Shown here one piece after another: positions 47,919-62,328 of a stretch of 64,000 nt of DNA. The position numbers were made by a program, and so were the translations under genes. The notes beneath the pieces are model-generated. The model saw only the letters and a program-made list of their open reading frames with translations. It did no database searches and had not been told where the DNA came from. Each line of letters starts with the position of its first letter. Positions within the stretch are counted from its first letter, which is position 1. Source of the stretch: Modicisalibacter xianhensis (GTDB taxonomy: Bacteria; Pseudomonadota; Gammaproteobacteria; Pseudomonadales; Halomonadaceae); the NCBI RefSeq assembly GCF_900113605.1, contig NZ_FOPY01000006.1, positions 210,416 to 274,415 of the forward strand, read 5' to 3'.

Positions 47919-50042
47919 GTGAATCCGGTCAAGAAAACATTCCAGTACGGTCAGAGCACCGTCACCCTAGAAACCGGGCGTGTTGCCCGCCAGGCCACCG
48001 GTGCCGTTCAGGTCACCATGGACGGCGCAGTGGTACTGTGTACCGTCGTGGCCAAGAAGGAGACGAAGCCGGGTCAGGATTTCTTCCCGCTGTCGGTCCA
48101 TTACCAGGAAAGAACCTACTCGGTAGGCAAGATCCCCGGTGGCTTCTTCAAGCGCGAAGGGCGTCCGACCGAGAAAGAGACGCTGACCTCACGCCTGATC
48201 GATCGCCCGATCCGCCCCTTGTTTCCCAAGGGCTTCATGAATGAAGTGCAGGTCATTTGTACCGTGCTGTCCGCTGATCGCAACCAGGACCCGGACATTG
48301 CCGCCATGATTGGTACGTCTGCCGCCCTGGCGATCTCCGGCGTACCTTTCAACGGCCCGATCGGCGCCGCACGCGTGGCCTTCACCGAAGATCGTGGTTA
48401 CTTCCTCAACCCGACGGTCGAGGAACTGCAGACCTCCGAACTCGACATGGTCGTGGCCGGTACCGAGAAGGCCGTGTTGATGGTCGAGTCCGAAGCCAAG
48501 GAATTGCTCGAGGATGAGATGCTGGGCGCCGTGCTTTACGGCCACCAGGAAATGCAGACCGTCATCGAAGCCATCAAGGAGCTTGCCAGCGAAGCTGCCA
48601 AGCCCAGGTGGGACTGGCAGCCGGCACCGGAAAACACGGCGCTAAAAGATGCCGTGACCGAGGCCTTCGAAGCCAAGGTCGGTGATGCCTATCGCATCAC
48701 CGACAAGATGGCGCGTCAGGATGCGCTGGCAGCACTCAAGGCCGAGGCGGTCGAGCAACTGGCCGGCAGTGAAGAAAGCAAATACTCCCCTGACGAAGTC
48801 GGTGCAGCCTTTGCCAGCCTCGAGAAGCGGGTGGTGCGTGGTCGTGTGGTCGCGGGTGAACCGCGTATCGATGGGCGCGACAGCAAGACCGTTCGTCCGC
48901 TGGACATCGAGGTTGGCGTACTGCCGCGTACGCATGGCTCCGCACTGTTCACGCGTGGCGAGACCCAGGCCATGGTCATTGCCACCTTGGGTACACTGCG
49001 TGATGCCCAGTTGATCGAATCGCTGGAAGGCGAGCGCAAGGACCGGTTCCTGCTGCACTATAACTTTCCTCCCTACAGCGTGGGCGAGGCCGGCTTCATC
49101 GGCAGTCCCAAGCGTCGCGAGATCGGTCATGGACGATTGGCGCGTCGTGGGGTGCAGGCCATGCTGCCCAGCGAAGATGAATTCCCGTACACCATCCGTG
49201 TGGTATCCGAGATCACCGAGTCCAACGGCTCAAGCTCCATGGCCTCAGTGTGCGGTTCGTCACTGGCCCTGATGGACGCTGGCGTACCCCTCAAGGCACC
49301 GGTGGCGGGTATCGCCATGGGATTGGTCAAGGACGACAGTGGCTTTGCCGTGCTGACCGACATTCTGGGTGACGAGGACCACCTCGGTGACATGGACTTC
49401 AAGGTGGCCGGTTCTGCCGACGGCGTGACCGCACTGCAGATGGACATCAAGATCGAGGGCATCAACGAGGAAATCATGGAGACTGCGTTGCAGCAGGCCC
49501 ATGATGCCCGCCTGCATATCCTGGCTGAGATGAACCAGGTAATCGCCCAGAGTCGTGCGGAAATCTCTTCCAACGCGCCGTCCATGGCGACCATCAAGAT
49601 CGATCCCGAGAAGATTCGCGATGTCATCGGCAAGGGCGGTGCGACGATCCGCAAGATCTGCGAAGACACCGGCGCCTCCATTGATCTCGACGACGACGGT
49701 ACCGTACGTATCTACGCCGACGACAAGGCCGCTGCCAAGCGTGCCATCGATACGGTGCTCGGTATCACCGCCGAAGCCGAGATTGGCAAGCTGTATCGCG
49801 GCAAGGTAGTACGGATCGCCGATTTCGGGGCTTTCGTCAACTTCATGCCGGGTACCGACGGGCTGGTTCACATTTCCCAGATCGTCCCCGAGCGCGTCAA
49901 TGACGTGCGTGATTTCCTCAACGAGGGTGATGATATCATCGTCAAGGTCCTCGACATCGACAACCGCAACCGCGTGAAGCTGTCGATCAAGGAAATCACC
50001 GCCGAGGAAAAGGCCGCATTCGAAGCCACCCTGGCCGAATAA
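47919..50042 (+). CDS. pnp: Polynucleotide phosphorylase
   Basis: A 707-residue PNPase: two RNase PH domains ([20 protein letters not shown] type block; [40 protein letters not shown]), KH domain ([20 protein letters not shown]) and S1 domain ([20 protein letters not shown]). The GTG at 47919 ([12 protein letters not shown]) follows GAAGGAAG and matches E. coli; a TTG five codons earlier is disfavoured. 3'-5' phosphorolytic RNase of the degradosome. Confidence 0.98.
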
Positions 50043-50080
50043 AGCGCCGCATAAGTCAGCCAAGCAGCACGCTGCAAAGA

Positions 50081-50115
50081 AACGCCCCTGCAGGCCAAGC
50101 CTGCAGGGGCGTTTT
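50081..50115. terminator. Bidirectional terminator between pnp and the thiolase gene
   Basis: A 14-bp perfect stem AACGCCCCTGCAGG with a CCAAG loop and T4 on the plus side. It serves both convergent genes. Confidence 0.92.
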
Positions 50116-50133
50116 CATGATTGCCAGGTTTCT

Positions 50134-51312
50134 TTATCTTTCGATAGCCAAGGCAACCCCCTGACCCCCGCCAATACACAGCGTGGCCAGGCCCTTCCTG
50201 GCATCACGCGCAATCATCTCGTGCACCAGCGTGACCAGCACGCGGCAGCCCGACGCCCCGATGGGGTGTCCCAGTGCAATGGCCCCGCCATTGACGTTGA
50301 TCTTTGCGGTATCCCAGCCAAGCTCCTTGTTGACTGACAGAGCCTGGGCGGCAAACGCTTCGTTGGCCTCGATCAGGTCCAGTTCATCGATCGACCAGCC
50401 GGCCTTTTCCAGGCAACGGCGCGTGGCCGGGGCCGGGCCGATGCCCATGATGGCCGGATCCACGCCAGCGTTGGCGTAGGCCTTGATGCGTGCCAGCGGC
50501 TCCAGGCCGAGTTCGCGTGCCTTGGCCTCGGAGCAGAGCATGGTCACGGCGGCGCCGTCGTTGATCGATGAGGCATTGCCAGCGGTGATCGTGCCGTCCT
50601 TCTTGAAGGCAGGCTTCATGCCGGCCAGCTTTTCAGCCGTAATGCCCTTGCGCGGGCCTTCGTCGGTATCGAAAACGAGCGGGTCGCCCTTACGCTGGGG
50701 AATTTCGATGGGCACGATCTGGCTCTTGAAGCGTCCGCTGTCGATGGCGTCGCTGGCCTTCTGCTGGGAAGCGGCGGCAAATTCATCCATCTGTTCGCGG
50801 GTAATGCCATACTTCTCGGCCAAGTTCTCGGCGGTGATACCCATGTGGTAATTGTTGAACGCGTCCCACAGCCCGTCATGGACCATGGTATCGATCGCCT
50901 TCCAGTCACCCATGCGTTGACCGGTACGCGAGTTGGGCAGGACGTGGGGCGAGAGCGACATGTTTTCCTGGCCACCGGCCAGGATCAGGTCGGCGTCCCC
51001 GAGGCGAATGGCCTGGGTCGCCAGGTGCAGGGCCTTGAGGCCCGAGCCACAGACCTTGTTGATGGTCATGGCGGGAACGGCATCGGGCAGGCCGGCCAGG
51101 ATCGATGCCTGACGTGCCGGGTTCTGGCCGACGCCTGCAGTCAGCACCTGGCCCAGCAGGACTTCATCGACCTGATCAGGTGAAACGCCGGTGCCGGCGA
51201 GAATGTCCTTGATCACCTTGGCGCCCAGCTCGGCGGCAGGCGTCGTGGCGAGCGAGCCGCCAAAGGTACCGATGGCAGTGCGGCGAGCCGCGACGATGAC
51301 CACGTCTTGCAT
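50134..51312 (-). CDS. phaA: Acetyl-CoA C-acetyltransferase (biosynthetic-type thiolase)
   Basis: A 392-residue thiolase: nucleophilic Cys in [38 protein letters not shown] (His) and [16 protein letters not shown] (second Cys). It condenses two acetyl-CoA to acetoacetyl-CoA. The PhaA-type sequence suits polyhydroxybutyrate synthesis, common in halomonads, but no phaB/phaC is adjacent, so atoB-type metabolism is equally possible. The ATG at 51312 follows AAGGAG. Confidence 0.93.
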
Positions 51313-51477
51313 GCGAAACTCCTTGAAACGAGGGCAGACGACTACATCCTCAGCATAGGAGCGGTTGTGCATCGCGGCAATCGCTAAAAAGTGGCATCTT
51401 GACGTGTGTCTAGATACCGGCAGGAGAACAGTTCGCGCATGGCCGCCGTCCGTGGCGGCCAGGAACATCGTGCAGGG

Positions 51478-51858
51478 TCAGGCGACCTGGACGGGAATGG
51501 CGTGGCTGGTATGGCTGACCTGGTTACCTTCCTGCAGGTAGATGAGGGTCGGCTTGTGATTGTCCAACTCGCTTTCGTTGTAATGGGCATAGCTGCAGAT
51601 GATCACCCGGTCCTGGACGCTGGCCAGGTGGGCCGCGGCGCCATTGACCGAAATGATCCGTGAGCCTTCCTCGCCGCGAATCGCATAAGTCGTGAAGCGT
51701 TGACCATTCTCGACGTTGTAGATCTGGATCTGTTCATTTTCGCGAATACTGGCCATGTCGAGCAGTTCCCCATCGATGGCGCAGGAACCCTCGTAATTGA
51801 GCACGGCGTGGGTGACACGGGCCATGTGCAGCTTGGCCTTGAGCATGACGGTATACAT
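51478..51858 (-). CDS. panD: Aspartate 1-decarboxylase precursor
   Basis: A 126-residue PanD. The self-cleavage site is Gly24-Ser25 ([13 protein letters not shown]), which leaves the pyruvoyl group on Ser25. It makes beta-alanine for pantothenate. It follows panB-panC in the same direction with a 33-nt gap, completing the pantothenate set panBCD. Confidence 0.98.
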
Positions 51859-51891
51859 CGTAGTTCTCTTCTTGCTGATTCCCGGCGCGCC

Positions 51892-52749
51892 TCAGAGCGG
51901 CAGGGTCACCTTGAGATTGTCGATCAGGCGGGCACTGCCCAGATGCACCGCACCCAACAGTACGGCATTGCGTGTCGTTTCGGTGACCGGGCCAAGATCA
52001 TCGGCGCGCCGCAGTTCCAGATAATCCGGCTTGAGGCTGCCATGGGCGAGCTGACCGAGTGCCCCACGCAACACCTCATCCGGTAGCTGACCTTTTTCGA
52101 GGGCGACGCGCGCCTCGTGCAGAACCTGGTAAAGGCGCGGTGCCTCGGCACGCTGCGACGCATTGAGGTAGCCGTTGCGCGAGGACAGGGCCAGGCCATC
52201 ATCGGCCCGTACGGTCGGTACACCGATGATCTCGATCGGCAGGTGCAGATCGGCCACCATCTTGCGAATGACGGTCAGTTGCTGGTAATCCTTCTCGCCG
52301 AAGCAGGCGATATCCGGCTGCACCAGATTGAAGAGCATGGCGACGATCGTGGCCACACCTTCGAAATGGCCTGGACGGCGAGCCCCGCACAGGCCCTCGG
52401 AGACATGGGGAACCCGAATGGTGGTCTGGTCGTCCAGGCCGTTGGGATAGAGCATCTGGCTGGTCGGGGTGAACACCAGGTCGCAGCCCGCCGTTTCAAG
52501 CGCAGCTCGATCCTCATCCAGGGTGCGCGGATAGCTGTCGAGATCCTCGTTGCGGCCGAACTGCAACGGATTGACGAAGATCGTGGCAATGACCACATCG
52601 GCACGCGCACGCGCGGCTTCGACCAGGGCCAGGTGGCCCTGGTGCAGATTGCCCATGGTCGGCACCAGGCCGATGCGCTTGCCCTGGCGGCGGGCGTCCT
52701 GCATCGCATGGCGCAGCGAGGGGATATCGTTGAGCATGAGCAGGGACAT
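51892..52749 (-). CDS. panC: Pantothenate synthetase
   Basis: A 285-residue PanC: RIGLVPTMGNLHQGHLALVE (HIGH-like), IFVNPLQFGRNEDLDSYPRT, CFGEKDYQQLTVIRKMVADL (KMSKS-like), LALSSRNGYL. It joins pantoate and beta-alanine with ATP. Its ATG overlaps the panB stop by one base (TGATG). An ATG four codons in is a possible alternative start. Confidence 0.98.
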   Translation of the reverse strand: MSLLMLNDIPSLRHAMQDARRQGKRIGLVPTMGNLHQGHLALVEAARARADVVIATIFVNPLQFGRNEDLDSYPRTLDEDRAALETAGCDLVFTPTSQMLYPNGLDDQTTIRVPHVSEGLCGARRPGHFEGVATIVAMLFNLVQPDIACFGEKDYQQLTVIRKMVADLHLPIEIIGVPTVRADDGLALSSRNGYLNASQRAEAPRLYQVLHEARVALEKGQLPDEVLRGALGQLAHGSLKPDYLELRRADDLGPVTETTRNAVLLGAVHLGSARLIDNLKVTLPL

Positions 52750-53540
52750 CAGAAACTGTGCTCCTCGGCCGGAAAGCGGCGCGCCTTGACTGCCTCGTGA
52801 TAGGCACGAAATGCATCCTCGATCGACGCGGTATCGGCCAGGAAGTTCCGCGAAAAGCGCGGAATGCGGCCCAGGCTGACGCCGAGCACGTCATGCATGA
52901 CCAGAATCTGCCCATCGACGTCCGGGCCGGCGCCGATCCCGATGACCGGCACGTCGATGGCGTCACGCATCGCCTGGCCCAGGCTGGCGGGCACGCACTC
53001 CAGCAGAATGATCGAGGCCCCGGCGGCGACCAGTTGGCGGGCATCCTCGATGATCCGCTCGGCATGCGCCGCATCCCGGCCCTGGACCTTGTAGCCTCCC
53101 ATCTGGTGGACGGTCTGCGGCGTCAGGCCCATGTGGGCACAGACCGGCACGCCGCGTCGGGTCAGTTCGCGAATGCCGTCGGCCAGCCAGGCCTCGCCCT
53201 CGATCTTGACCATCTCCGCACCGGCACGCATCAGCGCACCGGCATGCTGCATGAGCTGCTCCAGGGTGGCATTGCTCATGAACGGCAGGTCGGCCATCAG
53301 CAGGCTGCGCCCTTTGCCACGCGCCACGCAACGGGTGTGATAACAGATATCGTCGATGGTCACGGGCAGGGTACTGGTATGCCCCTGCAGCACCATGCCC
53401 AGGGAGTCGCCGACCAGCAGCACGTCGATACCGGCCTGGCTGGCGGCATGGGCGAACGAGGCATCGTAGGCGGTCAGGCAGCTGAACGGCTCGCCGGCGC
53501 GCTTGGCTGCCTGCAGCGTGCTCAGAGTGACGGTTTTCAT
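52749..53540 (-). CDS. panB: Ketopantoate hydroxymethyltransferase
   Basis: A 263-residue PanB barrel: PFSCLTAYDASFAHAASQAG, VLLVGDSLGMVLQGH, MVKIEGEAWLADGIRELTRR, VCAHMGLTPQTVHQMGGYKV, VIGIGAGPDVDGQILVMHDV. It transfers a hydroxymethyl group to ketoisovalerate, the first committed pantothenate step. Coupled to panC. Confidence 0.98.
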   Translation of the reverse strand: MKTVTLSTLQAAKRAGEPFSCLTAYDASFAHAASQAGIDVLLVGDSLGMVLQGHTSTLPVTIDDICYHTRCVARGKGRSLLMADLPFMSNATLEQLMQHAGALMRAGAEMVKIEGEAWLADGIRELTRRGVPVCAHMGLTPQTVHQMGGYKVQGRDAAHAERIIEDARQLVAAGASIILLECVPASLGQAMRDAIDVPVIGIGAGPDVDGQILVMHDVLGVSLGRIPRFSRNFLADTASIEDAFRAYHEAVKARRFPAEEHSF

Positions 53541-53598
53541 GGCTTCAGGTCTCGTCTCCTGTGGCTGGCGTTGCCCACCGTGATCGGGGCGCAGGGAG

Positions 53599-53647
53599 TG
53601 TTACCGTAATTGTTACTGTACGACGGTAGCAGTGTGGATCGGTAACA
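53599..53647 (-). promoter_or_regulatory. Cluster of TGTTAC/GTAACA half-sites upstream of panB
   Basis: On the plus strand TGTTAC occurs at 53599 and 53611 and GTAACA at 53642. Read along the minus strand this is TGTTAC-N25-GTAACA-N6-GTAACA, 59-107 bp before panB. The same hexamers flank the CrcZ-like promoter (56236, 56281), which suggests a shared regulator such as CbrB. No -24/-12 promoter was found between them and panB. Confidence 0.4.
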
Positions 53648-53667
53648 AAAGCCGCACAACTCTACCT

Positions 53668-54147
53668 TTAGGGGGAAAGCCGCCGCAAGCCGCCATCCGC
53701 GACTTGGGCCAGCAAGCGATGCAATGGCATGCCGTCGATGGCCAGGTCGGGTGCGATGTCCGCCAGAGGCACCAGTACGAAGGCGCGTTCATGCATGCAG
53801 GGATGCGGTACCTTCAAGCGTGGCAGATCGAGAGTCAGGTCGTCGAATATCAGCAGGTCGAGGTCCAGGGTCCTGGGTCCCCACTGACGCAGCCGCCGGC
53901 GGCGATGGGCCTGTTCCAGCGCCTGTAACTGATCGAGCAAGGCCAGTGGTGACAGGCGGGTCGAGACGCAGGCCACGGCATTGACGAAATCGGGCTGGTC
54001 ATGGGGGCCGACCGGCGTGCTGGCATAGCATGGCGATGCCATGACCAGCTGCGTCAGGGGAAGGCGGTCCAAGGCTGCCAGTGCCTGAGCCACCCGCTGC
54101 TCGGGACCGTCGAGGTTGCTGCCCAGGCCGATATAGGCGATAGCCAT
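53668..54147 (-). CDS. folK: 2-amino-4-hydroxy-6-hydroxymethyldihydropteridine pyrophosphokinase
   Basis: A 159-residue HPPK: AYIGLGSNLDGPEQRVAQAL, HDQPDFVNAV, WGPRTLDLDLLIFDDLTLDL, LKVPHPCMHERAFVLVPL. It activates the pterin for FolP (encoded at 37559). The ATG at 54147 overlaps the pcnB stop (TTGATGG). The pcnB-folK-panB order is conserved in gammaproteobacteria. Confidence 0.98.
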   Translation of the reverse strand: MAIAYIGLGSNLDGPEQRVAQALAALDRLPLTQLVMASPCYASTPVGPHDQPDFVNAVACVSTRLSPLALLDQLQALEQAHRRRRLRQWGPRTLDLDLLIFDDLTLDLPRLKVPHPCMHERAFVLVPLADIAPDLAIDGMPLHRLLAQVADGGLRRLSP

Positions 54148-55568
54148 CAATCTTGGCCGGGGGAGGGCTTGCGCCGCCGTCGGCGCGGTCGGCGCTTGCG
54201 CGTGTCGGGCTGGCCTGCCGGGTCGCTGTCGATCTTGCCGAGCAGGCGGCGCTGCTCGTGCTCATCGGCCTGCTGGAAGGCCTCCCACCAGGCGCCTAGC
54301 CCGGATGGGATCTCACCGGCGGCCTCACGCAATAGCAGGAAGTCGAAAGCTGCCCGGAAGCGAGGATGCTCGCGTGTCTGGAAAGCCCGCTTGCCACGCC
54401 GCTTGGGTAGCCGTTGCTGCAGGTCCCAGATATCACGCATCGGCAGACTGAAGCGCTTGGGAATGGAGGTGTGCTGGAGCTGGCGCGACACGGCCTGATG
54501 CGAGGCCGTCTGCTGGGCCGGGATCGGTGGCATGCCTTCGGCATGCAGGCGCTGACAGCGCAAATGCACCCCGGGCCACAGCAGCGCGGCAAACAGGAAG
54601 GCCGGGGTGACCGGGCGCTCTTCCTGGATACGTGCATCGGTATTGGCCAGCGCCTGGACGATCAATTCCTCGGCCCAGGGCAACGCTTCCATGGCCTCTT
54701 CCGCTTCGGGGAACAGCATGGCGAACAGCCCGTATTCGCGCAGCTTGTGAAACGTCTGGACGGCATGGCCCGAGAGAAACAGCTTGAGTACTTCCTCGAA
54801 CAGGCGGGCGGGAGGAATCTGCAGTAACAAGGGGGCCATTTCGCGGATTGGTGCTTCTGTCGCCGGGTCGATGGCAAAGTCGAGCTTGGCGGCAAAGCGG
54901 ATGGCGCGCAGCATCCGCACCGGGTCCTCGCGATAGCGCGTCTCGGGGTCGCCGATCAGACGCAGGGTGCGGCGCTCGATGTCATGCAACGCATCTGCCC
55001 AGTCATGCAGCGAAAAATCGGCGATGTTGTAGTAGAGCGCATTGACGGTGAAGTCGCGGCGCAGGGCGTCTTCCTCGATATTGCCCCACACGTTGTCGCG
55101 CAGCAGCAGGCCATGCTCCGACTGCTGAGCCACGTGCTCGCCATGGTCGTCGTTGGGACGACCGCGAAACGTGGTGACTTCGATGATCTCGCGGCCAAAA
55201 CGGACGTGCACGATGCGGAATCGCCTCCCGATGATGCGGGAGTTGCGGAACAGGTCGCGTACCTGCTCGGGGGTGGCGTCGGTCGCCACATCGAAGTCCT
55301 TGGGCGTCTTGCCGAGAATCGCGTCACGCAGGCAGCCACCCACAAGATAGGCATCGAAGCCCGCATTGTGCAGACGATAGAGCACCTTCAACGCGCCGTC
55401 GCTGAACATCTGACGCGAGATCGTATGGTCTTGGCGGGGAATGATTTGCAGCGTCGGCACGTTGCCTTTGCTGTTCTGATTGTTACCGAATAGGGTCTTC
55501 AAACCTTCACCGGAATAGTGAAAAAAGCGGCTAAATCCTTTAAGCATTCCGCGGTATCGGCTCGCCAT
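54147..55568 (-). CDS. pcnB: Poly(A) polymerase I
   Basis: A 473-residue nucleotidyltransferase: DAYLVGGCLRDAILGKTPKD, FDVATDATPEQVRDLFRNSR, RRDFTVNALYYNIADFSLHD, and a very basic C-terminus (RKRRPRRRRRKPSPGQD). It adds poly(A) tails that promote RNA decay. The start is uncertain: the ATG at 55568 has no clear site, an ATG at 55547 is an alternative, and relatives use non-ATG starts. The upstream RNA terminator at 55647 separates it from the cbr region. Confidence 0.95.
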   Translation of the reverse strand: MASRYRGMLKGFSRFFHYSGEGLKTLFGNNQNSKGNVPTLQIIPRQDHTISRQMFSDGALKVLYRLHNAGFDAYLVGGCLRDAILGKTPKDFDVATDATPEQVRDLFRNSRIIGRRFRIVHVRFGREIIEVTTFRGRPNDDHGEHVAQQSEHGLLLRDNVWGNIEEDALRRDFTVNALYYNIADFSLHDWADALHDIERRTLRLIGDPETRYREDPVRMLRAIRFAAKLDFAIDPATEAPIREMAPLLLQIPPARLFEEVLKLFLSGHAVQTFHKLREYGLFAMLFPEAEEAMEALPWAEELIVQALANTDARIQEERPVTPAFLFAALLWPGVHLRCQRLHAEGMPPIPAQQTASHQAVSRQLQHTSIPKRFSLPMRDIWDLQQRLPKRRGKRAFQTREHPRFRAAFDFLLLREAAGEIPSGLGAWWEAFQQADEHEQRRLLGKIDSDPAGQPDTRKRRPRRRRRKPSPGQD

Positions 55569-55646
55569 GGACTGAAGGGCTCAGTGTAGCGAAGCCCCGG
55601 GGGCTTGCAAAGCCTTGTCAAACGTGTCAGCCGAATACACATGCAG

Positions 55647-55674
55647 AAAGGGGAGACCAATTGGCCTCCCCTTT
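55647..55674. terminator. Terminator of the CrcZ-like RNA
   Basis: Stem AAAGGGGAG/CTCCCCTTT continued inward by CCAATTGG. On the minus strand it ends TTTCTG, and it is 79 bp before the pcnB start. It is nearly symmetric, so it also works on the plus strand. Confidence 0.85.
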
Positions 55675-56135
55675 TAAGCAAATCGTTCAGCATCCGTGCT
55701 GATGTTTCTTCTTCGTGATGGCGCATCGCCTTGAATACGCACCACAGTCACCAATCCGATAGTTCAGGCAAGCAGTCTTCTTGTCGTTGTTGATCTTCCT
55801 GGTGCGACCGTCTCGTATTCAAAACAATAATCCAACCACGACGGCAGGGTGTCTGCCTCCCTTCGGCTTGTTGTCGTTGTTGCCGAAGGTGCCCCTCCGA
55901 TGGAACCTGTAGTTGTTGTTGATCCCATTCACGGAGCGTCGCGTCCCGATATCTTTACCGGTCGGCCAACCGATTGTTGTTATTGGGGTTGGCTCGCTTG
56001 TCTCGATACTTGTTGTTGTAATGTCGGTACAAGCGTTATCTATCCCAGCACTTGTCATTGTTGTTGCCGGTCGTTGTCTGGCCACGTCTTGTTGTTGTTC
56101 GTGGTCATTGGCATCCGGTTTATTGTTTTTCTTAC
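55647..56135 (-). ncRNA. crcZ: CrcZ-like small RNA (Hfq/Crc-sequestering), predicted
   Basis: The cbrB-pcnB gap holds no credible protein. Read on the minus strand it is full of A-rich CA motifs. Exact AAnAAnAA occur at 56120-56127, 56089-56099 (AACAACAACAA, two registers), 56058-56065, 56010-56017, 55974-55984 (two registers), 55913-55920 and 55706-55713. Near matches lie at 55868-55881 and 55778-55792. The 55868-55881 motif forms the 14-nt loop of a 7-bp hairpin (CTTCGGC/GCCGAAG, 55861-55888). The predicted start is ~56135 from a -24/-12 promoter; the end is the terminator at 55647. Length ~490 nt versus ~400 nt for Pseudomonas CrcZ, which is also encoded directly after cbrB. An open frame through the region (Asn/Thr/Gln-rich) is a by-product of the repeats. 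Confidence 0.85.
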
Positions 56136-56145
56136 CCAAGAATAC

Positions 56146-56161
56146 TGCAGGCTCTGTGCCA
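56146..56161 (-). promoter_or_regulatory. Sigma-54 (RpoN) promoter of the CrcZ-like RNA
   Basis: Minus strand TGGCACAGAGCCTGCA: TGGCAC is a perfect -24 block, GG and GC are exactly 10 nt apart, and the -12 block is CTGCA against TTGCA. The start is expected near 56135. Confidence 0.85.
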
Positions 56162-56235
56162 TTCATGTTTTTTTCCATTAAAAACAGTTGGTTGATGTTG
56201 AGTGCAGAACAAGGGCGGGCAGCCGACCCGGGGTG

Positions 56236-56286
56236 TGTTACCCCGGGTGGTGCAGTTTGGGGAGATGGCTGTGTGGGATGGTAACA
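56236..56286 (-). promoter_or_regulatory. Upstream activator half-sites for CbrB, predicted
   Basis: Along the minus strand, TGTTAC (56286-56281), 39 nt, GTAACA (56241-56236), centred ~125 bp before the predicted start, a normal enhancer distance for a sigma-54 activator. From memory, such hexamers are CbrB subsites in Pseudomonas. A 9-bp dyad ACCCGGGGT/ACCCCGGGT at 56226-56248 covers one of them. Confidence 0.6.
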
Positions 56287-56370
56287 AATGGTGCAGAAGT
56301 GGCGGTTTGTAGAGGGCTCACAATTCATCGGCTAACGGATTTGCCCTCTTATACCTTGGTCGTGCGAATA

Positions 56371-57747
56371 TCAGGCTGAGCGACTGCGTGGGCTTTTCTT
56401 GCGGGGAATGCCCAGGCGCTGGCGGCGTTCCCACAGGCATTTGCGACTGATGCCCAGTTTCTGGGCCAGCTCGGTCTCGCTCATCTGGTCCTGATGCTCG
56501 AGCACGAAGTGCTGAAAGTAATCTTCCAGCGAGAGATCCTCTTCGTCGTCGCTCGTCTCGGGCGTTGGGGCTGGCGCCGATTTCTTGGCCGGTGGGTAAT
56601 GCGTACCGGTCGCCGGCTTGAGGCCCAGGTCATCGGGATGAATGAGGTTGCCCTCGGCCAGGATCACGCCGCGCTCGAGCGCATTCTCGAGTTCGCGCAC
56701 ATTGCCCGGCCATGGGTAGTCGCGAATGTCTCGCCGGGCCGCTCTCGAGAGCTTGAGCCCTTCGCGTTCATGTCGCCGGCAGGCGCCCTCGAGCAGCACG
56801 TCGGCAATCTCGAGTATGTCGTCCTCGCGCTCACGCAGCGGTGGCAGGTCGATCTGCATGACATTGAGGCGGTAATAAAGGTCGAGGCGAAATTCCCCGC
56901 TCTTCGACAGCGCGCTCAGGTCGCGGTGCGTGGCGGCAATCAAGCGTACGTCGACATGCCGGGTCTCGACCGAGCCAATCTTGCGAATCTCGCCTTCCTG
57001 CAACACACGCAACAGGCGGGCCTGGGCATCGAGCGGCAATTCACCGATCTCGTCCAAAAACAGCGTGCCGCCATCGGCGGCTTCCACCAGGCCGGTGCGC
57101 GCCGCGCTGGCGCCCGTGAAGGCGCCTTTCTCATGACCGAACAGCTCGGACTCGATCAGGGTCTCGGGGATGGCGGCGCAATTGACGCAGATCAACGGCG
57201 CCTTGGCACGGCGGCTCTGGCGATGGATGGCTCGTGCCACGAGCTCCTTGCCGGTGCCGGACTCGCCCTGGATGAGCACGGTGACATCCGCAGGTGCGGT
57301 CTTGCGGATGCGGTTGTAGACCACCTGCATGGCGGTGCAATTGCCGATCATCTCCTGCGGCGGACTGGAGGAGCGTTCTGCTTCCGGTGCCGGGGAGGGT
57401 GCGTGGTTTTCCAGTGCCTTGGCGACAGTGGCGAGCAACTCGTCGTGGTCGAAAGGCTTGGCGACATAATCCACCGCACCCAGCTTCAGGGTGTCAACCG
57501 CCGAGCGCATGCTGGCGTAGCTGGTCATGATCAGCACTGGCGTGGGCGCGGCGGCCTCGATCAGCGCGGTGCCTTCCTCACCGGGCAGGCGCAGGTCACT
57601 GATGACCAGGTCGAAGCGTTGCGGGTCATGTTCGAGCGCCTCGGCCACCGAGCCGGCTTCGCTGACCTGATACTCGTGACGCTCCAGTAGCCGGCGCAGG
57701 GCCGAGCGGATGATGGCTTCATCTTCAACGATCAATATCCGGGGCAT
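56371..57747 (-). CDS. cbrB: CbrB, NtrC-family sigma-54-dependent response regulator
   Basis: A 458-residue regulator: receiver domain with phospho-Asp in [10 protein letters not shown] (~51) and Lys in VAKPFD; AAA+ domain with Walker [18 protein letters not shown], the sigma-54-contacting GAFTGA loop and Walker [22 protein letters not shown]-terminal Fis-type HTH ([20 protein letters not shown]). It overlaps cbrA by 23 nt. Assigned as CbrB rather than another NtrC by the transporter-kinase partner and the neighbouring CrcZ-like RNA and pcnB. Confidence 0.93.
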
Positions 57748-60682
57748 CGGAATCTTCGCCGTCCTGTTGGGTTCGGGGCAGCCACACCGTGATGCGGGTA
57801 CCGTGCGTGCGGTCCGGAGGGGGGGAGTCGATCCGGATATGGCCATGATGCTCACGAACGATGTTATAGACCAGAGGCAGCCCGAGCCCGGTTCCCTGGC
57901 CAGGCGCCTTGGTGGTGGTGAAGGGCTCGAACAGGTGATCTCGGATTGCGGCATCGATACCGTGCCCGTCATCAGTGACGCACATATGAATGCCGTCGTC
58001 GTGAGGTTGGGCATCGATCTCGACATGCCCGCCAGCCTGGCAGGCATCGCGCGCGTTGCCGATCAGGTTGACAAGCACCTGGACAAGACGCTGGGCATTG
58101 CCGTCGACCTCCAGGCCCGACGGACATCGGTTGCTGTAGCGGATATCCTGACCCGAGCGCGCCAGGCGGATCAAGTGCAGCGCTTCCTCGCAGAGCTGGT
58201 GCAGATCGACACGCTCGACGTGACTGCCCTGTAGATGACGCCCGCTATGGGCAAAGCTCACCAGTGAGCTGACGATACTCGATACGCGCTCGGTCAACTG
58301 CTGAATCTGGGCGGCGGTCTCGAGCAGAGCTGGGTCGTCGGTATCGTAGCGCAGGTTCTGGGCCAGCGAGGAAATACCGGTAATGGGGTTGCCGATCTCG
58401 TGGGCCACACCTGCTGCCAAGCGTCCAATGGAGGCCAGGCGTTCGGCATGGACCAGCTCGTCTTCCAGCCATTTCATCTCGCTGTGGTCTTCCACGAGGA
58501 TCACCGTGCCGCCCCGCTCGTCGCCATGCGCTGCCAATGTCGCCTTGTGCAGGCTCAGATAGCGTAGTTCGGCGCCTATGCGCACGGCCTGCTTGTAGAG
58601 CTGGGGTTGACCGGTGTCGATCATGCGGCTCAGCAATTCGGCCCAGGGGGCAGGCAGGCTGGCACAATGCGCCCCGATCACGCTCTCGCCGGCGATGCCC
58701 GAAAGCCGAGCTAATGCCGAATTCCACATCAGCAGTTCACGGTCCTCGCCGAAGGCACACAGCCCGACGGGCAACTCGGCCAGGGTCCGGCGATGATGGC
58801 GCCGCAGGCTGTCGAGTTCCCGCGCCAGTCCGGTGAGCCGCGAGCGGTAAGCCTCCAGGCGACTTTCGACGTAATGAATGTCGGGCGTAGCCTGAAGGTC
58901 CTGATGGTAGGGCAGGAAGCGGTCGACGATGTCCCGCGCCACGGCCGGCCCCATCAGGCCCGACAGGTTGGCCTGCAGGCGGTCGCGCAGGCGACGCAGC
59001 GCGTAGGGGCGGCCATCGAGCGGCGACAGGCCGAGCGCCTCGAGGGCTGTGGACACTTCCCGTTCGGCGACGTCGGGACCCAGTGCCTGGGCCAGATGTC
59101 GTTTGAAATCCTCGCCGTTCTTCGCAGCCAGGCTATGTCGCTTGGGGCGGATCACGGCATCCACCGAGCAGGCCTCCGCTGCCGCTCGCTCGCCCTCCGA
59201 GGTCCGCGTCATAAGCGACACTAGGATGAAAACGAGAATATTGCAGGCCAGCGAGAGCAGGGTGATGGCGTACCAGCCGGGCGTACCCTCGAGGCTCTCC
59301 AGTCCCGGTGGAATCACCACCAGGGCGGGATAGCCGGCTAGCAGTGGTAGCCATAGGCCGAGTAGCCAGATCGTGCAGCCGATTGCCAATCCGCTGACCA
59401 TGCCCTTGCGGTTGGCTCCGGGCCAGTAGAGCACGGCGAGCATGCCGGGCAGGCACTGGGCCATGCCGACAAAGGCCGCCAGCCCCAGGGTGGTCAGGTC
59501 GTGCTTGATGCCGATGGTGCGATAGAACAGCCAGCCGGATAGGATCACTGCCACGATCAATGCCCGTCGCAACCACAAGAGCCAGCGGTACAGGTCGGGG
59601 CGATTGTCGGGTGGGTGAGCGACCAGCACCACATGGTTGAGGATCATGCCGGCCAGCGAGAGAGCAATAAGAATCATGGTGCCGCTGGCGGCGGCCAGGC
59701 CCGCAAGGAAGACCAGCGTATCGACCCAGGGGCTGTCGGAGAGGGCGAAGGCCAGGTAAGCGATGCCTGGCGTGGTGGTATCGATACCCAGGCGCTGCGC
59801 GCCCCACAGTATCAGGGGGATGGGCACGGCCATCAGCAGCAGGAAGAGAGGCAGGCTCCAGCTGGTCTGCAACAGGGCACGCCGCGATGGCGTCTCGGTA
59901 AAGACCATATGGAACATGTGCGGCATCAGGAAGGCGGCGGCAAAGAACAGCAGCAGCAGGGTGCGCCATTGCCCCGAGTCGAGCTGGCGCGTTTGGGCCT
60001 GCGTGATCAGTCCGGGGCCGTCGAGCCAGGCCTGCAGGTCTGCCGGGCCGTCGAATATGCCGTACAGGGCGATACCGCCTAGCGTGAGCATGGCTCCCAG
60101 CTTGACCAGCGACTCTACTGCGATGACGGCAATTAACGCCTCGTGACGGGCTGGCTGATGGGTATGGCGTGCACCGAAGGCCAAGGCGAGCCCGGCGATC
60201 AATAGGCAGAACAACAGCGCCAGCAGGCTCGGCGAGGCCGCTCTGGTCAAGAGGTGTACCGCCTCGCCCAAGGTCTGGATCTGCAGGGCCAGCAGCGGCA
60301 GCACGGCAAGCAGCGTCACCAGGGTGATCAGGGTGCCGACCCAGCGACTGCGAAAGCGGAACACGAACAGGTCAGCCAGCGAGGCCAGCTGGTAGGTCCG
60401 GGTCATGCGCTGGATGGGCAGCAGCATGACCGGCCCCAGCAGGAAGGCACCCGCAACGCCAAGATAGTAGGCAAGGTAGCCGTAGCCGGCATCGGCGGCG
60501 AACTCGACGCTGCCATAGATGGCCCAGGCGCTGGCATAGACGCCAAGCGCCTGGGTATAGACAGCGGGGTGATGCAGGAGGCGCGCCGGTATCCAGCCGC
60601 GCTCCGCAGCCTGCGCACAGAGCAAAAGCAGGACGAGATAGCCGACCCCCAGGGCGAGCAGGCCTGTCAGGCTAGTGCTCAT
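57725..60682 (-). CDS. cbrA: CbrA, transporter-linked sensor histidine kinase
   Basis: A 985-residue membrane protein. Residues ~1-505 are an SLC5/SSS-like transporter with about 13 helices ([40 protein letters not shown]). A linker with a STAC-like region and a PAS domain (~640-740) follows. The kinase core has the H-box [20 protein letters not shown] (His ~760), N-box [15 protein letters not shown], and G-boxes DDGHGID and [12 protein letters not shown]. Pseudomonas CbrA senses carbon/nitrogen status and transports histidine. The ATG at 60682 follows AAGGA; it overlaps cbrX and cbrB. Confidence 0.94.
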
Positions 60683-60848
60683 CCAGCTTCCTTTTCTGTT
60701 CCAGCCAGACGGACAGTGCAATCAGGCCGCCCCAGATCACGAAGGGGCGGTACCAGGCCGTTCCCGGCACTGCCCAGCCGCTCATCAGCATGGGCGACAG
60801 CAGATACCCACCGAAGACGAGGAACAGCATGATGCGATAGACGTACAT
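60672..60848 (-). CDS. cbrX: Small membrane protein CbrX overlapping cbrA
   Basis: A 58-residue protein with two hydrophobic helices: MYVYRIMLFLVFGGYLLSP and WYRPFVIWGGLIALSVWLEQ, then a charged tail KRKLDEH. The last 11 nt overlap the cbrA start (ATGAGCACTAG), so translational coupling is likely. A similar small ORF precedes cbrA in Pseudomonas (cbrX). A GTG two codons upstream is an alternative start. Function unknown. Confidence 0.8.
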   Translation of the reverse strand: MYVYRIMLFLVFGGYLLSPMLMSGWAVPGTAWYRPFVIWGGLIALSVWLEQKRKLDEH

Positions 60849-60932
60849 GGTCACGGCCGCCGAAAATTCGTCCCCAGTCTATGGAGAGCGGCCGACCCCC
60901 TCAACTCGACCTGAGTCTAGGGGCGGGGTCGT

Positions 60933-61820
60933 TCAGCCCTGAGGCAGGGGGCGGAATGCCTGCGCCTGGAGACGCGAGGCATCCCAGGCGGCGATGGCGG
61001 CGGCGAGCTGATCGGCGACCGGGGCATTGGCCAGCATCGCCGGCGGTGCCTGGTCGAGTGCGACCAGGGCCTGGTGAAGCAGCGGACGCACCGCATCGTC
61101 ATCGGTGGGCAGGGCCGGGGCCAGGTTCTGCTTGGACAGCTTCTGGCCATTATCGGCAACAATCAGGGGCAGGTGGAGGTAGCGGGGCGTGGGCAGGTCG
61201 AGCGCGGCCTGCAACTGGCGTTGCCAGGGGGTGTTGTCGAGCAGGTCGTAGCCGCGCACCACGTCGCTGATGCCCTGGTCGGCGTCGTCGACGACCACGG
61301 CCAGCTGATAGGCCCACAGGTCGTCCTTGCGCTTGAGCACCACGTCGCCGAGCTGAGCTGGATCGAAGGCTTGCTCCCCGAACAGGCGGTCCTGCCAGGC
61401 TATTGGACGCAGCCCGAGGTCGCTACGCAGGCGCCAGGCCACCGGCTTGCCGGGCTCGCGGAGAGTGTCTCTGCACCAGCCGGGGTAGATGGCATGCTCG
61501 CGCCACTGCTTGCGCGAACAGCTGCACGGGTAGGCCAGGCCCAGTGCCGCCAGCCGGTCCAGGGCGGTCTGGTAGGCAGCATGCCGGGTACTCTGGTAAC
61601 TCACCGCCTCGTCCCAGTGCAGGCCGAAGGCCTCGAGCTGGCGCAGGATCTCGGCATCGGCGCCGGGAGGGCAGCGGGGCGGGTCGACATCCTCGATCCG
61701 TACCAGCCATGCACCACCGGCATGACGGGCATCCAGAAAGCTCGCCAAGGCAGTGATCAGCGAACCGAAATGCAGCGGGCCGGAAGGAGTCGGTGCAAAG
61801 CGGCCACGGTAGTCGGACAT
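60933..61820 (-). CDS. gluQ: Glutamyl-Q tRNA(Asp) synthetase
   Basis: A 295-residue truncated GluRS paralogue: [20 protein letters not shown] (HIGH-like), [10 protein letters not shown], zinc Cys set [28 protein letters not shown] (KMSKS-like), no anticodon-binding domain. It attaches glutamate to queuosine-34 of tRNA-Asp. The start MSDYRG at 61820 is chosen by homology. It follows dksA behind an intergenic terminator, as in enteric bacteria. Confidence 0.96.
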
Positions 61821-61849
61821 GATGTAGTCTTCTCGCTGAGCCACAACGC

Positions 61850-61872
61850 AAAAGGGCGCCACGAGGGCGCCC
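61850..61872 (-). terminator. Intrinsic terminator between dksA and gluQ
   Basis: Minus strand GGGCGCC-CTCGT-GGCGCCC followed by TTTT, 19 bp after the dksA stop. It should limit dksA-to-gluQ readthrough. Confidence 0.85.
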
Positions 61873-61890
61873 ATGCAGGGGACGTTTCGA

Positions 61891-62328
61891 TCAACCGCCG
61901 AGCTGCTTTTCCTTCAGCTCTGCCAGTGTCTTGCAGTCGACACATAGCGTGGCGGTGGGACGTGCCTCGAGACGACGAATGCCGATCTCGACGCCACAGG
62001 CCTCGCAGAAGCCGTAATCGTCTTCGTCGATCTTCTCGATCGTCTCGTTGATCTTCTTGAGCAGCTTGCGCTCGCGATCGCGGGTGCGCAGTTCCAGGCT
62101 GAACCCTTCCTCCTGGGTGGCGCGATCGGCGGGATCGGCATAATTGTTGGCGTCTTCCTGCAGATGACGCACGGTGCGATCCACCTCTTCCATGAGATCC
62201 TGTTTCCAGCCGAGCAGGATCTGGCGGAAGTGCTCCAGCTGCTTCTCGTTCATGTACTCTTCACCCGGCGCCGGCTCGTACGGGGTGAATTTCTTTGGCG
62301 CTTCCGTCTTCTTTTCTGCTACTGGCAT
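61891..62328 (-). CDS. dksA: RNA polymerase-binding transcription factor DksA
   Basis: A 145-residue DksA: coiled coil with [20 protein letters not shown] and acidic tip [20 protein letters not shown], then a C4 zinc finger (CEAC ... CVDC). It works with ppGpp to reset transcription. All four zinc cysteines are present. It heads the minus-strand run dksA-gluQ-cbrXAB-crcZ-pcnB-folK-panBCD. Confidence 0.98.

Follow-up and report, generated by a model that had tools for sequence, protein, structure and literature searches.

A putative CrcZ-type Hfq/Crc sponge RNA with a conserved 3′ domain between cbrB and pcnB of Halomonadaceae

The window (the whole 64,000-nt stretch of Modicisalibacter xianhensis DNA that was analyzed) carries on its minus strand a cbrA gene (57725–60721) for a sensor kinase with HisKA, HATPase_c, and PAS domains, a cbrB gene (56371–57747) for a sigma-54 response regulator, and pcnB (54147–55568; TIGR01942, E = 1.3e-163). 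CbrB, whose gene adjoins cbrA, is composed of a response regulator domain, a sigma-54 AAA domain, and a Pseudomonas-like DNA-binding end. It is 64% identical to the CrcZ-adjacent CbrB of a Pseudomonas-type genome (G222), with near-identity at the end that includes the DNA-binding part, and the kinase part of CbrA is 50% identical to that of G222. The gap between cbrB and pcnB (55647–56135; 489 nt, minus strand) had been proposed in a first-pass annotation to encode a CrcZ-type sponge RNA placed as in Pseudomonas, and the gene order, with the RNA between cbrB and pcnB, is indeed the same. Judged by the positions of promoter and terminator, the candidate RNA would extend over 55644–56136 (minus strand), its predicted 5′ end lying ∼12 nt past the GC of the sigma-54 box and its 3′ end being that of the terminator.

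On the minus strand of the gap, 11 overlapping or seven non-overlapping exact AAnAAnAA motifs were counted, the latter agreeing with the number first given. Dinucleotide shuffles of the gap (n = 2,000) contained 0.66 overlapping motifs on average and five at most, so that 11 was reached in none; when both strands were scanned in steps of 50 bases, the gap was denser than any other 489-nt stretch in the window, the next separate one holding three motifs. The predicted 5′ terminal Hfq/Crc site (56120–56133) consists of three overlapping motifs, many As of which are invariant across 35 sequences; it lies outside hairpin loops, as does the AAGAAGAA site at 55706–55713. The predicted fold places the other sites, AACAACAACAA (56089–56099), AACAACAA (56058–56065, 56010–56017, and 55913–55920), and AATAACAACAA (55974–55984), all on the minus strand, in hairpin loops, which amounts to five of the seven motif blocks of the window's RNA. 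The A-rich hairpin loop annotated at about 55861–55888 was recovered in this fold, as part of a hairpin at about 55858–55890 (minus strand) with a near-match site in its loop. The annotated intrinsic terminator, too, was found, as a hairpin followed by a T tract at 55647–55675 (minus strand). With regard to protein-coding potential, an ORF of 169 aa (55819–56328) runs across the sigma-54 promoter. Over 45 loci, the longest frame contained in the RNA measures anything from 19 to 125 aa, so that no conserved gene or shared protein is seen there, in agreement with the earlier statement that a credible ORF is absent.

The perfect GG-N10-GC sigma-54 promoter of the first-pass annotation corresponds to TGGCACAGAGCCTGCAGT, a TGGCAC-type box at 56144–56161 (minus strand). 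Since about 2.2 such strings are expected per window by chance, the weight of the box derives from its position and its conservation in relatives, a similar box being present at 45 of 45 loci. In P. putida, CbrB binds TGTTAC (subsite F) and GTAACA (subsite R) upstream of crcZ, according to excerpts of PMC6296734. Candidates for both are present on the minus strand of the window, subsite F at 56281–56286, −125 from the promoter box, and subsite R at 56236–56241, −80 from it. When a spacing of 25–65 bases was allowed, the dyad of F and R, in this fixed order, was found in 45 of 45 promoters downstream of cbrB (shuffle mean 0.0) and in none of 15 promoters from loci without cbrB, where gluQ, not cbrAB, is located just upstream; a narrower spacing of 30–60 bases yielded 43 of the 45. 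The cbrB-less set comprised 15 of 16 loci (L123 was dropped, its strand pattern being unmatched), 10 of them from one genus (g4), and the status of eight was assigned by genome-wide search for CbrB, that of the other seven by locus and genus. One member of this set, L117, has a single TGTTAC, unpaired and at a different place. Relative to the sigma-54 box, the position of subsite R is −79 to −81 at all 45 cbrB loci, and that of subsite F is −124 to −126 at 39 of them. In G222, the sequence preceding CrcZ contains TGTTAC at −124, GTAACA at −103, and GTAACG at −80 (the last counted by hand). Other motifs were also observed in these promoters. At about −190 to −207 relative to this box (as in L115–L119), a GAC-N4-GTC palindrome is present in 31 of 45 promoters with cbrB, where 23 matches fall at −198 to −200, and in 14 of 15 without; it is absent from the window. 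GCACCA, possibly an NtrC-like half site, occurs in 31 of 45 and 15 of 15, respectively, near −134 at the cbrB-less loci and at 56289–56294 and 56248–56253 in the window.

Among 61 family genomes, the window's own included, 46 encode a CbrB ortholog (E below 1e-150); the best matches in the other 15 (E about 1e-90 to 1e-97) were taken for probable paralogs. The RNA unit is present at 45 of the 46 cbrB loci: the gap before pcnB contains 11–26 motifs, a sigma-54 box immediately preceding the first cluster of motifs, and, in 45 of 45 cases, a terminator-like hairpin that ends the RNA, whose length as set by the promoter and terminator rules is 464–556 nt. The remaining genome, G024 (L051 and L277), has cbrB and crc, but pcnB is located elsewhere, and the sponge RNA was found at neither place; lacking a nearby pcnB, L051 was dropped from the 46-locus table.

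The minus strand from 55647 to 56135 has a minimum free energy of −166 kcal/mol, which corresponds to z = −6.94 relative to 100 shuffles. The RNAalifold consensus of 35 of the 45 RNAs (alignment A1; alignment A3 held 31 of the 45) comprises 43 pairs, 22 of which are changed on both sides. In the control count, 94.4% of the cells were paired and the 22 double-change pairs of 43 were equaled in none of 500 shuffles; sliding the pairing partners abolished the covariation signal, with the proviso that the structure was derived from the same alignment and is therefore favored over its slid versions. Double changes affect all four pairs in the stem of the hairpin at 55858–55890 (columns 410–413/440–444) and all nine counted pairs of the terminator. 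In a subset of 13 of the 45 RNAs, hairpin loops hold 3–7 of the 7–9 motif blocks per RNA, compared with 1.2–2.4 in spacer-shuffled controls, and all 13 fold better than every one of 60 controls each; for one of them, L010, the loop count was not above control (16 of 60 shuffles were as high). Thus, the RNA tends to show its A-tracts on stems, beyond what mere A-richness would produce. The notion that the gap is a simple, functionless A-rich spacer of low complexity could appeal to its repeat-like AAC tracts; the placed promoter sites, the covariation, the folding, and the retention throughout the family leave it with next to no probability.

Besides the A-rich tracts, the RNA contains a conserved 3′ domain, which the first-pass annotation had missed. 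It is matched by covariance model R1 at 55711–55840 (minus strand; 137 bits, E = 6.4e-37, the window sequence having been in the model) and contains a 15-bp helix between two conserved complementary strands, at 55814–55828 (5′ strand) and 55725–55739 (3′ strand). In most sequences, these strands near the 3′ end read ATTGTTTTGAATACG and CGTATTCARGGCGAT, and both are present in 45 of 45 RNAs. Across 35 sequences, 99.6% of the helix cells are paired, 11 of the 15 pairs never vary, and none is changed on both sides; because such near-invariance leaves no room for proof by covariation, the helix is argued from the complementarity of its two conserved strands. It was also observed that, in the window, the U-rich part of the strand at 55814–55828 and the A-rich site at the RNA's 5′ end (56120–56133) are mutually complementary. 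The RNA might possibly alternate between the 15-bp helix and pairing with this 5′ site, which differs in some relatives (as judged by eye).

Exactly one copy of the 3′ domain (R1) per genome was found in 198 of 201 family genomes and no match in G222, G067, or G074, and among 145 order-wide genomes, matches were returned for five family genomes and for G586. The G586 match (28.8 bits) falls within a leucine-rich-repeat reading frame and was rejected as a false positive. A scan of a virus collection for the helix strand gave no match. Among the matches listed from an exact-pattern scan of named genomes are Halomonas, Vreelandella, Salinicola, Chromohalobacter, Cobetia, Marinospirillum, Oceanospirillum, and others, as well as one MAG titled Pseudomonadaceae (L184). 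Of at least 120 matching loci, 80 were considered, and seven of these were left out of the promoter count (less than 500 nt upstream). A sigma-54 box was found at each of the 73 scorable loci. The two CbrB subsites occur together at 68 of them, the exceptions being four Salinicola loci and one MAG; the pattern of the 3′ strand is present in 68 of the 70 loci of this set with enough downstream sequence. The 3′ domain is an added module that would most likely serve as a protein-binding or stability element. Conceivably, the RNA could act chiefly through this domain—by base pairing or via a protein other than Hfq—with the A-rich loops recruiting Hfq for stability, and the helix strands are in fact among the most conserved parts and the domain is kept at one copy per genome. 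The A-tracts are likewise conserved and, moreover, repeated, and two genera beyond those described below (G017 and G018) keep an RNA that is shorter and rich in motifs, has a sigma-54-like box but no adjacent cbrAB, and lacks the 3′ domain, which makes this alternative quite unlikely.

The RNA is not restricted to loci with cbrAB. The gene order dksA-gluQ-RNA-pcnB-folK-panB, with no cbrAB between gluQ and the RNA, was found at six loci from five genera, and these loci keep promoter, motifs, terminator, and 3′ domain (R1, E = 4.8e-26 to 1.1e-11); ten further loci from one of the five genera have gluQ directly upstream and pcnB downstream. Of the original proposal that the whole CbrAB–CrcZ circuit exists in this lineage, the part concerning the window's genome holds, but it does not extend family-wide, several genera having no cbrAB at the RNA locus. 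Because both the RNA and the promoter persist in Salinicola and other genera that have no cbrAB at this locus, control of the RNA has probably been rewired. The occurrence of cbrAB at the same place in Pseudomonas and throughout most of the family leads us to infer a loss rather than an original absence; a PcnB tree, in which the outgroup branch was very long, did not separate one loss from several. When cbrB-less promoters (seven loci from seven genera) were scored for an NtrC-type palindrome, the mean best score was 9.2 of 12 compared with 7.6 in shuffles, and 6 of 300 permuted palindromes did as well, a modest, weak signal. As a separate observation, cbrB is found between gluQ and the RNA without cbrA there in L145 and L152 (Chromohalobacter), L163 (Cobetia), and L195 and L204 (Halomonas), L204 retaining a cbrA remnant at the locus; unless cbrA is encoded elsewhere in the genome, the CbrB of these five loci may be an orphan. 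The fact that the RNA stays upstream of pcnB even without cbrAB would also be expected if it were a long leader or read-through segment regulating pcnB, its A-rich Hfq sites acting in cis. Such a role is very unlikely: the strong terminator, with double changes in all of its counted pairs, ends the RNA before pcnB, and CbrB, whose type of site is present in every one of the promoters with cbrB, is a carbon regulator in Pseudomonas.

The protein partners of a CrcZ-type RNA are both encoded in the genome. The search for crc identified a protein of the EEP type whose best match of solved structure is the catabolite repression control protein 4jg3 (E = 2.4e-77; 48% identity, 121 of 252 residues). 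Eight of the eight contact residues checked, which excerpts of PMC6422490 give as contacting RNA, Hfq, or Crc (R138, K139, R140, R141, E142, E193, R229, and R230), are identical. A match to Crc with E below 1e-110 was found in 61 of 61 family genomes, in two of which the matched frame contains one stop codon. Hfq is present as a close match to solved Hfq proteins, and the residues listed in the same excerpts for the ARN pocket of its distal face (Tyr25, Leu26, Ile30, Leu32, and Gln33; PMC6422490) are kept except that Tyr25 is replaced by Phe.

Putative targets were sought in 464 kb (400 kb plus the window) comprising 374 genes with crude start calls. AAnAAnAA was found 25 times on the sense and 2 times on the antisense strand between −60 and +20 of these starts, and 26 and 17 times, respectively, in the remainder of −200 to +200. 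A-rich leaders are common in bacteria, and part of this signal may therefore be general. Sixteen genes carry the motif within −45 to +12. Sorting by eye, and not blindly, assigned ten of them to uptake or catabolism according to their Pfam families (three DctP, SBP_bac_3, Xan_ur_permease, DHDPS, E1_dh, Aldedh, 3-hydroxyisobutyrate dehydrogenase type, and ECH). Another two, RimP and an iron–sulfur protein, do not fit, and four are without a family. Among 20 random genes from the same DNA, three were uptake or catabolic genes (five if every transporter is counted).

The similarity of the family RNA to CrcZ resides in organization. The Rfam CrcZ model (RF01675) gave no match at its gathering score in window positions 50000–62000 or in the genome, nor any with E ≤ 10, which bears out the suspicion that the RNA has diverged beyond simple sequence search; weak matches to other Rfam models (such as P24 and snoR12) were dismissed as chance or terminator-like. 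The CrcZ model does match G222 (E = 6.7e-87), the only one of 369 class-wide genomes above the cut-off, with four weaker matches elsewhere (E = 4.5e-6 to 7.7e-4), and an nhmmer profile of the family RNAs matched Pseudomonas CrcZ weakly (E = 0.011), in a repeat-like stretch. Comparison with the one genome G222 shows that the family RNA has in common with CrcZ its position between cbrB and pcnB, a sigma-54 promoter, similarly spaced CbrB-type subsites, the repetition of AAnAAnAA, and a similar terminator. Unlike CrcZ, the family RNA fails the Rfam model, is longer (464–556 nt versus about 370–400 nt), bears the 3′ domain, which was not found in G222, and in some genera has no cbrAB at its locus. 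Its A-tracts are mostly in predicted hairpin loops, a test that covers the family RNAs alone. Common descent with CrcZ is likely, on the basis of position and promoter rather than sequence. CrcY (Pseudomonas and Azotobacter) and CrcX are extra sponge-RNA copies elsewhere in the genome; they are of like kind, whereas here there is one copy per genome, as far as domain-bearing copies are concerned. In P. putida, crcY is a CbrB target, according to excerpts of PMC6296734.

CbrB-like proteins (about 51–64% identity) are encoded in 37 of the 369 class-wide genomes, including the window's own and two RNA-bearing relatives. At the other gammaproteobacterial CbrB-like loci (L062–L088), a CbrA-like kinase part is adjacent in five of five cases checked. 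As hosts of the RNA, 27 of 27 such loci examined were rejected: in a stretch of at most about 1.5 kb after cbrB, pcnB is absent and 0–3 motifs occur. A review describes CbrAB with crcZ as unique to Pseudomonadaceae (PMC8871633). Given the CbrB-like regulators of other gammaproteobacterial families, CbrAB-like systems seem to be more widespread than the review states. A search of the open-access literature by title and start of abstract found no report of a CrcZ-type RNA in Halomonadaceae, and the retrieved portions of two articles naming Halomonas together with CrcZ or CbrB (PMC5073097 and PMC9049629) do not describe CrcZ or CbrB of Halomonas.

The interpretation that we favor by a wide margin, with a probability of roughly 90%, is that the gap encodes a ∼490-nt CrcZ-type Hfq/Crc sponge RNA driven by CbrB and sigma-54. 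Counting against it are the failure of the Rfam CrcZ model, the weakness of the profile match to Pseudomonas CrcZ, and the Phe that replaces Tyr25 of Hfq. It is based on sequence, conservation, covariation, promoter sites, the presence of Crc and Hfq, and the motifs at sampled catabolic starts; from these, we infer transcription, binding of CbrB, binding of Hfq/Crc, and relief of repression. The first-pass interpretation is thereby supported, with gene order, sigma-54 box, CbrB subsites, Crc, Hfq, catabolic-gene motifs, and family-wide conservation all in agreement. When a good carbon source is exhausted, CbrA–CbrB would activate the sigma-54 promoter via the subsites at −125 and −80. Hfq together with Crc would then bind to the A-rich (ARN) tracts of the RNA (seven blocks in the window, 7–9 in 13 RNAs), the majority of which would be exposed in hairpin loops. 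Hfq/Crc would thus be drawn off the starts of catabolic mRNAs, and repression would be relieved.

Tentatively, the RNA could be viewed as composed of two modules, a 5′ Hfq/Crc sponge with swapped control—by CbrAB in Halomonas-type genera and by another sigma-54 activator where the locus has no cbrAB, as in Salinicola and other genera—and a nearly invariant 3′ helix domain with a second function. The replacement activator is perhaps NtrC, which would tie carbon repression to nitrogen, and the second function might, equally tentatively, be control over the release of Hfq/Crc from the sponge or over RNA decay. According to excerpts of an eLife paper, how CrcZ is displaced from Hfq/Crc is unknown (PMC6422490); the conserved 3′ helix would offer a testable handle on this question.

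As far as its sequence features tell, the RNA would function like CrcZ and is positioned like CrcZ, yet it fails the Rfam model and bears a family-specific module. Some Halomonadaceae are grown for bioplastics, and their carbon preference matters for production. The RNA without cbrAB constitutes a natural experiment on the rewiring of a global sponge. The CrcZ-like circuit would extend to a halophile family, against the view of the review (PMC8871633) that it is unique to Pseudomonadaceae.
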